In this document: positions 26,435 to 31,779 of the stretch, piece by piece
Position numbering within the stretch: position 1 is the stretch's first letter
Layout of the letters: every line of letters starts with the position of its first letter
From: Streptomyces sp. B21-083
Lineage (GTDB): Bacteria; Actinomycetota; Actinomycetes; Streptomycetales; Streptomycetaceae
Assembly: GCF_036898825.1 (NCBI RefSeq)
Contig: NZ_JARUND010000002.1
Location: forward strand, 3,906,001 to 3,970,000
Length of the DNA: 64,000 bases
Direction: 5' to 3'
The notes under the pieces: generated by a model
Seen by the model: the letters and a program-made list of their open reading frames with translations, nothing else
Told to the model about the DNA's origin: nothing
Database searches by the model: none
Position numbers and translations under genes: made by a program

Positions 26435-26945
26435 GTCCGTTACGAACCAGTTCTGCCGGGCGGGCATACAACCCGGTACTCCCGCCGGCCGCTCGTGGCC
26501 ATGAACGTCGCCTCCGCGTCCGCACGAGATCGAATACCGCATCTCCCACCGCATCAAGCGCCAGGCCATCCTGCACCGGAACCAACCACCGCGGTACACG
26601 GCGATCATCCACGAGGCCGCCCTGCGCATGCGGTTCGGCGGCCCGGAAGTAGCCCGCGCCCAACTGGAACACCTCGCCGAGATGAGCGAACACCCGTACA
26701 TCACCGTCCGCGTGATCCCCTTCGACGGCACCGCGTTCCCCACTGTCGGCCATGGTCTGGACTATGCGTACGGGCCGGTCCGCGCCCTCGATACGGCACA
26801 GCTCGACGCCGCACACGGCAGTGAACTCATCGACTCCGTCGCACAGTTGGCCAAGTACCGACTCGTCCTCGACCACATGCAGGAGGTCACCTTGGAACCC
26901 GAGACCTCACTCGACCTCATCCACCGCATCGCTCAAGACATCTGA
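26435..26945 (+). pseudogene. Remnant of XRE-family regulator (DUF5753 domain), frameshifted and truncated
   Basis: The last ~140 codons match the DUF5753 C-terminus: HEIEYRISHRIKRQAILHRN, then QLEHLAEMSEHPYITVRVIPFDG and SLDLIHRIAQDI, ending at TGA 26945. Just upstream the match continues in another frame (RYSRRPLVAMNVAS), with a stop in the original frame near 26503, so at least one frameshift lies at about 26505-26520. The N-terminal helix-turn-helix domain is absent. Intact members partner with a DUF397 gene downstream, exactly as here. Confidence 0.75.
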
Positions 26946-26955
26946 GGGCCGGACC

Positions 26956-27152
26956 ATGACCGAACTCAACTGGCAGAAGTCCACGTACAGCGAGGAAGCC
27001 TCCTCCTGCGTCGAGATAGCAGTTACCCCGGCAGCGATCCGCATACGCGACTCGAAGCACACCGACGGCCCCATTTCACCGTCGCTCTCTCCGCTTGGGC
27101 GGGCTTCATCTCGCACACAACCGCACTCCGCCCCGGCCTCCCCCGCCACTGA
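26956..27152 (+). pseudogene. DUF397 gene with one-base frameshift
   Basis: ATG 26956 opens MTELNWQKSTYSEEASSCVE followed by IRIRDSKHTDGP, a normal DUF397 start. At the C-run 27069-27072 the family continuation (PHFTVALSAWAGFISHT..) is found one frame over, ending at TGA 27152. One missing C would restore it; as written the frame runs to 27183 with an unrelated tail. DUF397 proteins are small partners of XRE/DUF5753 regulators (BldB-like context). It starts 10 bases after the regulator remnant. A sequencing error at the C-run is possible. Confidence 0.75.
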
Positions 27153-27557
27153 CACACCCGCCAGCGCCACCTCCTCCGTCTGAACGGAATCCGGGGCGCC
27201 CGTAGTCCGGCGCGGCGGTCATGGGGCGCCGAGAAAGCTGAGCCCGTCGGCACGTCGGCGATCTTTCGATGACGCCGCTGTCGCCGATCGCGCTGTCCGG
27301 CGGAGCCGGGTACACCGCCAACAAGTCTCTTTCGTAAGCCAGTTCGATGTGTAACTATCTCCGTGCCCACGGGGGAAGCGGGGCAAGGAGTGCCGTGCGT
27401 GACCAGTGCGGCTCGTGCTCCCTGCCTGCATCCGGGCGCCGTTGTCCGTGTCTTCGCGTTCTCTGACGTACCGCCGTTTTGTGTTGCCTCGCGATGCGTC
27501 GCCGCTTCCCCTTCCGGGCCGATCCTTCGGCCTTCGACCGAGAAGACGGGAAGCAAC
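27153..27557. other. Leader region of the putative toxin gene
   Basis: These 405 bases have no supported gene. A possible -10 hexamer TAACTA lies at 27352-27357 with only a poor -35. A small hairpin GGCCGA-TCC-TTCGGCC (about 27519-27534) lies about 25 bases before GTG 27558. The long reading frame continues upstream here but without a ribosome site. Confidence 0.35.
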
Positions 27558-30500
27558 GTGCGCAGAGCGTTACTCATACGGGGCGGTCCCCGGAGCAGAT
27601 CCTTATCCCATGGCCCGCGCAAGGGGCCGGTCGGCGTCGCACTGGCGACAGCGGTAGCTGTGCTGACCGGCCTTGTGTACGCCGTACCGGCCAGTGCCAC
27701 CCCCGAGCCGCTGTCGGACACCGGCGGCAACCGGATCTCCTTCGGCCAGGACGTCCGCGCCGATCGCTGCGAGGCCGGCTTCGGACTGCACATCGGCGGG
27801 CCGGTGCTGAAGGCCGCCGCGTCGAAGGCCCTCAACGGCACCGACGCCGAGCTGGCCGCGGCCCTGTACCGCCGGGCCAACATCTACCCCAGCGTCCTGG
27901 ACGACGCGGTGACCGACGACATTGCCGGGATCTCCGACTACGTCACCGCCTCCAACGCGAGCACCACCCGCTGGGAGGCAGCCAACCGCGCGTACGCCAT
28001 GTCGTACTACGGCGGTGACGGCGGCGTCACGCTCCAGGCACCCGAGTTCGACGCGACCATCCGAGCCTTCACGATCGGCCCGCAGAAACGGCTGTACGAC
28101 CGCTTCGGGGAAGACGGCCGCAGCGTTCCCGGCGCCGCCGCCATCGACAGCGCCAAGAAACTCAACGCCGTGATCACCGGCAAGGATCCGCAGGGCGACG
28201 ACCGGATCGCGGATCTGATGCTGTCCAACAGCTACCTCACCGCTCCGTACAACAGCACCACCGCCACCGACATCGCCCGCTATCTGCGACAGGGCGGCTT
28301 CCCCCGGCAGGCACCGGCGGAGGACAGCGCCGAGTACCGCATGGAGGTGGAACAGCTCAAGATCGCCTGGGGCAACTGCGACAGTTGGAACCCCATCGAT
28401 CCGCGCCGGGTGCTCGCCTCGGTGACGGCCACCGCCTACGCCGAGTGGGAGACGGAGTACGCGTCCCAGGCCAAGCCCCGCGCCGACATCATGGCCGCCG
28501 AGGTGACCGCCGCCGCGCAGGTGCACAAGGCGACCGACGCGATGATCGAGGGGATCGCCCAGGCCTGGCTCGCCGAGCAGATCCTGGTCTGGCAGAAGTA
28601 CTGGGCCGGACAGCCCAAGGACGACATCCTCCGCCCCAAGGCCGCCGTCTTCACGCAGGCCACCACAGACCTGGCCAACGCCCGCACCCGGGTCTCGGCC
28701 CAGCTCACCCTGGCCAACCAGGCGGTGACCGCCGCCAAGGCCGCCGCCGACAAGGCGGGCACCGCCCAGACCAGTGCCTACGCCATCGCGGACACGGCCA
28801 AGACGCCGCGCGGGCGTGGACTGCTGTACGCCCAGCAGTCCGCGCAGGTCGTGAAGGCCTCGTACGCGGCGGCTCAGGCAGCCGCGAAGGCAACCCAGAC
28901 GGCGGTGAACGCGGCCAAGGCCACCGTCGCCGACGCGAAGGCGCAGTTCGCGCTGGCGCAGACCCAGGCGCACGCGCTGAACACCGAGTTCCGCCGGGCC
29001 GCCGCCGAGGAGGCCGCCGCCCAGGCGAAGGCCGCCGCGACGGCGGCGGACGTACAGGCCAAGGAGGCCGCGGCCAACGCCACCAAGGCGAAGGCCGCGC
29101 AGACCACCGCCGAGGCCGCCGAGAAGACCGCGAAGACGGGTGCCGCCACGGCCGCCGCCCGACGCGCCGAGGCGGAGGCGGCTCGCGACACCGCGACGGC
29201 CGAACACGCCACCGCCACCCGCGAACGCGCCAAGGCCCAGGACGCGGAGACGCGTGCCAAGGCGGACGCGGCGACAGCGGCCACCGCGCGCGGGGCCGCC
29301 GAGACGGCCGGGGGAACCGCTTCCGCACGCAACGACGCCGCCATCGATGCGCAGCAGGAGGCGTTCGAGGCACGGGACAGGGCCCGGGCCGCCGAGGAGA
29401 CCAAGCAGGCCGCGCTGTCCCGAGCCGCCGCGCTCGAAGCCGCGGCAGCGGCAGCCACCGGTACGGACGCGGCGGCCGAGGCCCGGACCGCGGCAACCGA
29501 GGCAAGGTCCGCCGCGAACACGGCGACGGCAGCGGCCACCAGCGCCCAGCAGAACGCCGCCGTGGCAACCACCGCGGCGATCAATGCGCGCGCCGCCGCC
29601 ACCCGGGCCGACGCGGCCGCCTCCCGGTCCCAGGCCGCGGCCGACGGCGCCAGCGCCGCCGCGCTCACCACCCATGCCGCCGCCGTCACCGCGCACGCTG
29701 CCGCCGCTACGGCGATCAGCGCGGCGGCAGCGGCACAGAAGAACGCCGAGAACGCCGAGGTCGAGGCCAAGAAGGCGGCAGCAGCCGCGATCACGGCCCG
29801 GCAGCAGGCCGCAGCCGCCCGCGAGGAGTCGCTGAAGACGGCCAAGTGGGCGGCAGTCACCGCCGGCCAGGCCTACGCGGCGAGCGAGGCCGCGAGCGCG
29901 GCCCGTGACTCGGCGGTCGAGGTGATCAAGCCCGCCAACGACGCCATCAACATCGGCACCCCTTATAAGGAGACCGACTCCGCCGCCGCCTACGCCGTCC
30001 TCACCGGCCAGACCTCGCTGACCCTCGCCGAGCAGCAGGCCGCGGCGGCCAAGGCCAAGGCGGAGGACGCGGCGAAGGCCGCGGCGACCGCGAAGGCCCT
30101 GGCCGACAAGGCCGCCGCCGACTCCAAGGCAGCCGCCACAGCAGCGGCCAACGCCGCCGCCGACGCCGCGAAGGCCGCAACCTCGGTGGCAGCCGCCCGC
30201 GCCTCGGCCGCCGAAGCCGCCAAGGCTGCGGAGGCGGCCAAGAAGGCCGACAGCAACGCTCAGGTGTACGACGCGCAGGCGAGTTCCGACGCCGCCTACG
30301 CACAGACCGCGGCCTACACCGCCAAGAGCGAGGCCGCCGCCGCGAACAACGAGGCCACCGAGGCGGAGCGCGACGCGGCCGGTGCCCGCACGGCGGCCGA
30401 CGCCGCCAACGCGGACGCCGCTTCCGCCCGGAGCACCGCGACCCAGGCGGAGAAGGACGCCACCGAGGCCGAGACCGCCGCGAAGAACGCCGACGGCGCG

Positions 30501-31403
30501 GCCAAGGACGCCGACGCGGCGGCGGACAGTGCCGCCGAGGAAGAACGCAAGGCGGTTCAGGAACAGCGCGCCGCCAACGCCGTCGGCGACCCCGACAGCG
30601 GTCCCGGGCTGTCCGCGAGCGACGAGGCACTGCTGCTCAAGGAGTGCGGCCAGAGCTGCGTGGACGACTACAGGGCGGCCAAGGCGCTCGCGTCCCTGGA
30701 TGTCATCGACTGGGTCAGGGAGAACGGCGCCGAGATCCTGCTCGAAGTCGTCGGCGTCAACAACCTCAAGCGCTGCTTCGGTACGGGTGACGTCGAGAGC
30801 TGCCTGTGGTCGCTGGTCGACGTGGGCAGCCTGGCCCTGGCGGTCGGCAAGCTCCCCGCAGTCACCAAGGCGATCGTCAAGGTGACCAAGGGCATCGGCA
30901 AGTTCCTCGACGACGTGGCCCAGGCCAAGCACACCCTGGACCGGCTCCGGAAGCTCCTGGAGACGCTGCGCAAGGGCAGCGCACCGGCGAAGTGTCTGCT
31001 GAGCCTCGCGGAGGACGTGCTGGGCGCCGCCGCTCAGGCCCCGGCCGCGCGCACCTCGCTGGCCGCTGCACCTGCCGTCTCGTCAGCCGCCGCCGCGAAG
31101 ATGTGCATGACCTCGTCCATCGGCAAGGACTCGGTCCTGACCAGGCTGGCCCGGAAGGCGACCAACAACGCGGACGTCCAGGCTGACCTGGACAACATGT
31201 TCAAGGAACTGGCCAAGGGCAACCTGGAACCCGGCATGTTCAACAAGTACGACAAGGCGACGGGCATCACTTACGCCCGTGCCAAGAACGGCGGACGGTT
31301 GTTCTTCCGCGTGTTGGGCGACACGGTCGAGGTGGTCGCCAAGTCGGACAAGAGGTGGGAGGACCAGGTGTTCAACAGGTTGAAGAAGCTTTATGGAAAG
31401 TAA
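27558..31403 (+). CDS. Secreted Ala-rich coiled-coil protein, putative polymorphic toxin with RelE/BECR-like C-terminus
   Basis: This encodes 1281 residues from GTG 27558 with GGGAAG upstream. Residues 1-48 form a twin-arginine-containing basic leader and signal helix (GVALATAVAVLTGLVYAVPASA). Residues about 60-300 have an ALF-type repeat (ASKALNGTDAELAAALYRR) and conserved-looking helices. Residues about 308-1010 are a very Ala/Lys/Glu-rich coiled-coil rod with one break near 765-830. Residues about 1040-1110 form a Cys-containing pre-toxin segment (RCFGTGDVESCLWSLVDVG). Residues about 1190-1281 form a compact basic domain (MFKELAKGNLEPGMFNKYDK, then RVLGDTVEVVAKSDKRWEDQ) that resembles RelE/ParE-fold (BECR) ribonucleases. 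Its stop overlaps a small acidic-tailed gene by 11 bases, the usual toxin-immunity layout. Toxin function is inferred. Confidence 0.72.
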   Translation: MRRALLIRGGPRSRSLSHGPRKGPVGVALATAVAVLTGLVYAVPASATPEPLSDTGGNRISFGQDVRADRCEAGFGLHIGGPVLKAAASKALNGTDAELAAALYRRANIYPSVLDDAVTDDIAGISDYVTASNASTTRWEAANRAYAMSYYGGDGGVTLQAPEFDATIRAFTIGPQKRLYDRFGEDGRSVPGAAAIDSAKKLNAVITGKDPQGDDRIADLMLSNSYLTAPYNSTTATDIARYLRQGGFPRQAPAEDSAEYRMEVEQLKIAWGNCDSWNPIDPRRVLASVTATAYAEWETEYASQAKPRADIMAAEVTAAAQVHKATDAMIEGIAQAWLAEQILVWQKYWAGQPKDDILRPKAAVFTQATTDLANARTRVSAQLTLANQAVTAAKAAADKAGTAQTSAYAIADTAKTPRGRGLLYAQQSAQVVKASYAAAQAAAKATQTAVNAAKATVADAKAQFALAQTQAHALNTEFRRAAAEEAAAQAKAAATAADVQAKEAAANATKAKAAQTTAEAAEKTAKTGAATAAARRAEAEAARDTATAEHATATRERAKAQDAETRAKADAATAATARGAAETAGGTASARNDAAIDAQQEAFEARDRARAAEETKQAALSRAAALEAAAAAATGTDAAAEARTAATEARSAANTATAAATSAQQNAAVATTAAINARAAATRADAAASRSQAAADGASAAALTTHAAAVTAHAAAATAISAAAAAQKNAENAEVEAKKAAAAAITARQQAAAAREESLKTAKWAAVTAGQAYAASEAASAARDSAVEVIKPANDAINIGTPYKETDSAAAYAVLTGQTSLTLAEQQAAAAKAKAEDAAKAAATAKALADKAAADSKAAATAAANAAADAAKAATSVAAARASAAEAAKAAEAAKKADSNAQVYDAQASSDAAYAQTAAYTAKSEAAAANNEATEAERDAAGARTAADAANADAASARSTATQAEKDATEAETAAKNADGAAKDADAAADSAAEEERKAVQEQRAANAVGDPDSGPGLSASDEALLLKECGQSCVDDYRAAKALASLDVIDWVRENGAEILLEVVGVNNLKRCFGTGDVESCLWSLVDVGSLALAVGKLPAVTKAIVKVTKGIGKFLDDVAQAKHTLDRLRKLLETLRKGSAPAKCLLSLAEDVLGAAAQAPAARTSLAAAPAVSSAAAAKMCMTSSIGKDSVLTRLARKATNNADVQADLDNMFKELAKGNLEPGMFNKYDKATGITYARAKNGGRLFFRVLGDTVEVVAKSDKRWEDQVFNRLKKLYGK

Positions 31404-31779
31404 CCTTCCCTTCCCGGAGCACCGGACCGTCCGGAACGTCGGGACCTCGGACCTGGAGATCCGCTTCTTCCTCGGCGACGGGGACACCCCGTCCTCCGTC
31501 GACAACGTGGACGCCGTGATCACCGCCCCCGACGGAATGCGGTGGAGCGCGACCTTGCTGACCCGGTCCGCGATCGACGCGGTCATGGACCGCTGGGCGA
31601 TCACGGGCGAGAGCCTGGGAGGGCGCTACCTCCGAGTGCCCGACCTGGTCATCGTCCGGGAGCCAGGGCTGGACTCCATGGCACAGGCGCTGGGGGACAT
31701 CTTCGACGAGTACGGCCTGGACACGGACGTACTCCCGAAGCTCGGCCCGGTCGAGGACGACGAGGACGAGGACGGCTGA
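31393..31779 (+). CDS. Putative immunity protein of the preceding toxin
   Basis: This encodes 128 residues. ATG 31393 lies inside the last codons of the large gene, so the two are translationally coupled. The protein is acidic, ending VEDDEDEDG, with no signal peptide, so it is probably cytosolic; that suits neutralising a basic toxin domain. Visible segments are RNVGTSDLEIRFFLGDGDT, AVITAPDGMRWSATLLT and YLRVPDLVIVREPGLDSMAQ. I recognise no known immunity family. A strong hairpin follows 12 bases after the stop, so the toxin and this gene form one transcript. Confidence 0.65.
   Translation: MESNLPFPEHRTVRNVGTSDLEIRFFLGDGDTPSSVDNVDAVITAPDGMRWSATLLTRSAIDAVMDRWAITGESLGGRYLRVPDLVIVREPGLDSMAQALGDIFDEYGLDTDVLPKLGPVEDDEDEDG

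Follow-up and report, generated by a model that had tools for sequence, protein, structure and literature searches.

A predicted secreted toxin and its putative immunity gene in Streptomyces: a ring-less variant of the umbrella toxin protein UmbC

How would a large Streptomyces protein that looks like a secreted antibacterial toxin reach its target, and which part of it would do the harm? The question is raised by a gene of Streptomyces sp. B21-083 that lies in the 64-kb stretch of DNA analysed here (the window, G000:C2:3906001-3970000, within a 10.5-Mb genome) and encodes, from a GTG start on the plus strand, a protein of 1281 amino acids (aa) (27558..31403; open reading frame and homologues). 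A sequence-only reading of the locus had described a toxin with a signal peptide, an Ala-rich rod, a Cys-containing segment before the toxin domain, and a basic C-terminal tip, an architecture that is confirmed here with a signal-like N-terminus, and had proposed a new delivery route. The latter did not hold, as the rod matches the stalk of UmbC (PMC11062931) and three umbrella loci are encoded elsewhere in this genome. Instead, the unusual feature is a chassis without the ring of ALF repeats that carries UmbB and UmbA. We consider it likely that the gene and its downstream neighbor encode a secreted polymorphic toxin-immunity pair built on a ring-less relative of UmbC, where the tip would act as a RelE-like ribonuclease (RNase) and the neighbor would protect the producer.

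Homologues of the C-terminal 277 residues comprise 66 proteins and those of the head 41, mostly from Streptomyces, which takes the observation beyond chance. From 91 chassis proteins, five partial ones were dropped, and the final 100 residues of the other 86 were clustered. This gave 16 tip clusters, with 28 of the 86 proteins in the cluster of the window toxin, a share inflated by the window tip having been part of one query. The chassis motifs PRGRGL, CGQxCV-type, and CLW are present in 72, 78, and 81 of these proteins, respectively, and different tips are followed by different downstream genes (20 stretches, by eye). Domains recognized in 37 relatives include DUF4160 (4), Laminin_G_3 (3), HINT (1), and a toxin deaminase (1), and the precomputed domain columns add what we take to be RNase_A_bac (PF18431), ricin-B, and a type 27 domain. 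Two paralogues of rod and head with differing ends are encoded elsewhere in the genome, one carrying a HINT domain (L072) and the other a ricin-B lectin at residues 382-503 (L073). A conserved chassis with exchangeable tips and a tip-specific downstream gene supports a polymorphic toxin system, and the earlier proposal of a polymorphic, antibacterial-type toxin is borne out to that extent, with other tips on the same rod and a companion gene specific to the tip.

Conversely, the tip is found on several chassis. Records of tip loci numbered 34, 19 from named genomes and 15 from 392 same-genus genomes, the window gene (L097) being among the 15; as L077 and L094 are duplicates, 33 loci were sorted by automatic marks plus reading by eye. 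Nine encode an Ala-rod with a CGQxCV pre-toxin, two encode proteins with seven or eight ALF repeats (L074, L078), 11 encode other HINT-bearing proteins, some of them RHS, three encode RHS proteins without HINT (L099 by eye), and eight are short or unclassified. For four of the nine Ala-rod loci (L091, L100, L102, and L105), the reading covered no more than 500 residues before the tip, too short a stretch to show a ring-less chassis. Hence, one tip is common to Ala-rod, UmbC-type, RHS, and HINT-bearing chassis as well as short cassettes. Across the class, the tip was detected in 1 of 296 genomes, namely that of the window.

The tip (residues 1186-1281; 31113..31403, plus strand) has a RelE/ParE-type fold as supported by prediction, in agreement with the RelE/BECR-like domain suggested earlier. 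In the AlphaFold2 model compared with PDB structures, N-terminal helices are followed by a four-stranded meander as in the BECR fold, while Foldseek gave no match to the model at E <= 0.001. Fold and size thus resemble the RelE/ParE superfamily (YafQ, YoeB, RelE, HigB, ParE), yet, unlike these toxins, the tip is fused to a secreted rod, no RelE/ParE family was among the Pfam or NCBIfam matches of 11 tips at E <= 0.1, and no antitoxin family of Pfam or NCBIfam matches its partner. Likewise, the whole toxin matched zero families in Pfam and NCBIfam, its C-terminal 267 residues matched family models below cut-off only, and the tip had no match among PDB sequences up to E 10. Membership in Ntox27 was also rejected, as neither the tip nor the whole proteins P0007 and P0008 have such a Pfam match; the name "Bacterial toxin 27" on the latter two is a UniRef label only. 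RelE-like C-terminal toxins are known as Tox-RelE, and Zhang et al. 2012 (PMC3482391) report a single RelE tip among classical polymorphic toxins, from Paenibacillus elgii; the window system differs in its chassis and in a partner family outside Pfam. A survey of RelE/ParE multidomain toxins contains neither "Streptomyces" nor "secreted" in its main text (PMC11980606).

Rather than a ribosome-dependent RNase, the tip may be a ParE-like gyrase poison or hit another target, with the rest of the model kept. ParE chains are indeed among its structural matches, and ParE shares the RelE fold but misses the RNase residues, as stated in PMC11980606. However, the RNases YafQ, YoeB, and RelE rank above most ParE chains, and residues Y54, R56, R62, and K80, on or beside the strands and invariant in 11 tips, fit the [KR],R pattern given for Tox-RelE. 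Both arguments weigh little, and we regard a ParE-like or other action as unlikely, with the RelE-like RNase being the preferred reading.

The small downstream gene (31393..31779, plus strand; 128 aa) starts before the toxin stop codon and overlaps the toxin gene by 11 nucleotides (nt), as had been noted. It is a predicted immunity gene, and its homologues stand behind other copies of this tip. To follow the pairing, an immunity profile was seeded with the window protein and eight database proteins (43 matches in a first pass, before proteins from tip loci were added). In 34/34 loci, the tip is followed immediately by a homologue in the same orientation, with a spacing between tip and immunity profile matches of -17 to +33 nt, except for 99 nt (L091) and 110 nt (L089), both interrupted tips. 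Whether tip and next gene vary together had been left as a check, and they do so: their distance matrices correlate with r 0.80 (0/5000 permutations; 27 of 33 loci, six short tips dropped), a value to which shared ancestry contributes. The outcomes named beforehand as contrary to a toxin are not borne out, since the rod carries other tips as well and the companion gene is present in all 34 tip loci. The tip and the 128-aa gene form a module in terms of genetic linkage, and a basic tip (isoelectric point (pI) 9.8) next to an acidic partner protein (pI 4.1) would be compatible with direct binding.

Two observations weigh against this pairing as the whole story, as immunity homologues are found in 89/384 genomes compared to the tip in 15/392, and 18 of the 30 best-scoring immunity copies fetched have no tip nearby. 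Since the immunity family is much commoner than the tip and tip-less copies exist, many immunity homologues are orphans or serve something else. Most of the tip-less copies (among L129-L158) belong to a subgroup marked by a GRYFWCSDGLIV-like motif. At another locus (L108), the expected position of an immunity gene, 34 nt after the toxin, is taken by a gene that looks transposase-like by eye.

Upstream of the tip, the protein is predicted to consist of a helical head (residues 46-413; 27693..28796; AlphaFold2 model and homologues), a rod with 44% Ala, and a pre-toxin, all on the plus strand. The rod is modeled as three helices of around 190 residues each, i.e., stalk helix 1 (residues 424-614; 28827..29399), stalk helix 2 that would run back (residues 618-803; 29409..29966), and stalk helix 3 (residues 808-997; 29979..30548), and all three match 8w20_A. 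The umbrella toxin UmbC with its stalk was published in 2024 (Zhao et al., PMC11062931; PDB 8w20 chain A), and its stalk was matched here in a VIA comparison. UmbC was not recovered when the chassis was searched against PDB sequences with phmmer or as a profile. For comparison, the UmbC of an umbrella locus in the same genome (L069) recovers 8w20_A with E 3.7e-179. The pre-toxin (residues 1020-1133; 30615..30956), identified from homologues and modeled with a confidence of mostly 50-75, holds the CGQxCV and CLW motifs, and six Cys lie within residues 1001-1190.

The long coiled-coil stalk is of UmbC type, but the ring is missing. In UmbC, the ALF repeats number eight and are arranged as two groups of four, yet the window toxin has a single ALF-like repeat in the head (residues 80-101; 27795..27860, plus strand), and a 4-residue turn between stalk helices 2 and 3 (29967..29978, plus strand; model compared with the UmbC ALF positions) takes the site of ALF5-8. 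The ALF-type repeat of the sequence-only reading thus stands as one match but a weak one, scoring 21.7 bits, below the cut-off of 25.4, in a scan of residues 1-381 and absent when the whole toxin was scanned; a home-made ALF profile also gave one match, at 17 bits, and profile-profile comparison relates the repeat to UmbC ALF1-4. In the same genome, two UmbC proteins show eight ALF matches (40-65 bits) and a third seven, six at 38-53 bits and one at 9 bits. They are encoded in three loci with umbA, umbB, and umbC (L069 at G000:C2:3828000-3842000, L070, and L071), one of them ~70-75 kb from the window. Two more ALF matches occur in a 186-aa frame (G000:C1:5254326-5254601). Two relatives, P0066 and P0067, carry three ALF-like repeats in their head but lack the second ALF set, and they may represent a state intermediate between toxins with and without a ring.

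With three UmbC-type proteins and their umbA/umbB neighbors in the genome and one ALF-like repeat retained, the toxin could be an alternative cargo of the umbrella particle, its repeat docking onto UmbB/UmbA supplied from these loci. However, whereas an umbC gene is expected to have umbB (and umbA) within about ten genes, tblastn with the own-genome UmbA and UmbB gave matches next to each UmbC gene of this genome and at L078 but none in the 64-kb window, near L072/L073, or in L108-L127, except for L120 and L121, where, as in L085, weak matches are confined to the lectin part of UmbA. Similarly, L074, with seven ALF matches and a window-type tip, had no umbA/umbB match within 12.3 kb. Head matches occur in 30/101 same-genus genomes (the query does not match own-genome UmbC) and ALF matches in 55/101, both draws being assumed to cover the same 101 genomes as handles agree, with 64 candidates per genome scored for ALF. 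Of 11 head-positive, ALF-negative genomes, nine have no UmbB match (UmbA was not searched there), the exceptions being G078 with UmbB and G022 with a partial match, whereas 7/7 chosen ALF-positive control genomes have one. Among the nine, four have clear head matches (E 4.5e-35 or better) and five weak ones belonging to the longer subgroup. As the head is present there and the UmbB match absent, the toxin in several genomes probably cannot use an umbrella crown. Moreover, the ring closers ALF1 and ALF5 do not bind UmbB, as described in PMC11062931. Cargo of an umbrella particle is therefore improbable, and the ring-less architecture, which several genomes have in the absence of an UmbB match, is a real variant. 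A 2025 survey filtered out UmbC proteins without the full eight ALF repeats (PMC13274773), so ring-less members would be missing from its census. Among PMC titles and abstract openings the class is unnamed, with subscription papers and preprints mostly outside this search and absence from print not proven.

If the crown is dispensed with, recognition would fall to the head. LamG or ricin-type domains are found within the same chain in 7/86 chassis proteins (Pfam columns), which suggests that target recognition can be built into the toxin chain; lectins of the ring-less class, when present, sit in the same chain, unlike those of UmbC particles. For example, P0014, P0099, and P0100, named "RICIN domain-containing" and "polymorphic toxin type 27" by NCBI, belong to the same chassis family but carry a lectin-type domain, at residues 96-260 in P0014, and P0099 and P0100 have other tips. 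No lectin domain was recognized in the head of the window toxin. Directly upstream of some ring-less toxins lies a small secreted-looking protein that could be a partner (L085 1452-2372, L120 18-887, L082 1473-2393); the L085 and L120 copies weakly match the UmbA lectin part, and the L082 copy is similar by eye. Each of two toxin ORFs, L110 1521-9146 (2541 aa) and L113 3085-10446 (2453 aa), has two ring-less heads in tandem.

Export would proceed via the signal-peptide-like N-terminus (residues 1-46; 27558..27695, plus strand; by eye, no dedicated predictor), with a hydrophobic peak at residues 25-43. The GTG start is backed by a relative (L108) likewise opening with M-R-R-A-L, and by eye there is no clear twin-arginine motif of the Tat signal expected of an UmbC, so that export may follow either the Sec or the Tat route. 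An effector of the type VI secretion system (T6SS) or ESX was rejected, as the toxin has this signal-like segment; no T6SS or ESX genes were recognized by eye in the gene lists, where no profile search was made. Alternatively, the protein may stay on the producer surface as a contact-dependent adhesin-toxin instead of a released particle. Some relatives have LamG or ricin, and N-terminal laminin-G-type domains may tether toxins to the wall of the producer, as Zhang et al. 2012 (PMC3482391) suggest. Yet, no cell-wall anchor motif or C-terminal sorting signal is visible (by eye, no tool search), and the extreme C-terminus is the tip, making anchoring very improbable. That the protein is an Ala-rich structural or envelope protein merely resembling RelE at its C-terminus is hardly credible, since, although toxic activity is so far a prediction, the tips are variable, RHS, UmbC-type, and HINT-bearing proteins share this tip, and it always comes with the companion gene.

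For the secreted toxin-immunity pair, the following course may be proposed. Once exported, the chain would fold into a head on a three-helix stalk of ~29 nanometers (nm) running out, back, and out, with the pre-toxin and tip, modeled apart, presumably held at the far end. The head would bind the target in place of the UmbB/UmbA lectin crown, aided in some relatives by a built-in lectin, and the tip would pass into a rival actinobacterium. There, the tip may stop translation as a RelE-like RNase, while in the producer the acidic 128-aa neighbor, paired genetically, would bind and shield the basic tip. More broadly, we lean towards one stalk serving two architectures in Streptomyces, the umbrellas made of several proteins and a widespread ring-less class made of a single chain. 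The latter would have lost its ring, or never acquired one, and have shifted recognition into the toxin head, with no need for UmbA/UmbB. If true, the common delivery element would be the stalk, not the ring. Warhead entry into the target cell and the role of the stalk are named as open questions for umbrella toxins in PMC11062931, and a natural relative with the stalk and without the ring would offer a minimal system for asking which part entry needs. In addition, the locus brings a family of toxins with a predicted RelE fold and one of putative immunity proteins, both absent from Pfam and NCBIfam.

Finally, the surroundings of the ring-less toxin genes show some recurrence. Just upstream of the window toxin (26628-27183) lie apparent remnants of what we take to be a DUF5753-type regulator and a DUF397-like gene, and a longer regulator of DUF5753 type is found near L072. 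By eye, ring-less toxin genes are recurrently beside a gene presumed to encode pyruvate kinase (L072, L082, L085, L120, L121, and L012), and several of them are flanked on the other side by a presumably DUF6114-like gene. The corresponding site of L130 and L156 is occupied by an immunity homologue alone, with no tip.
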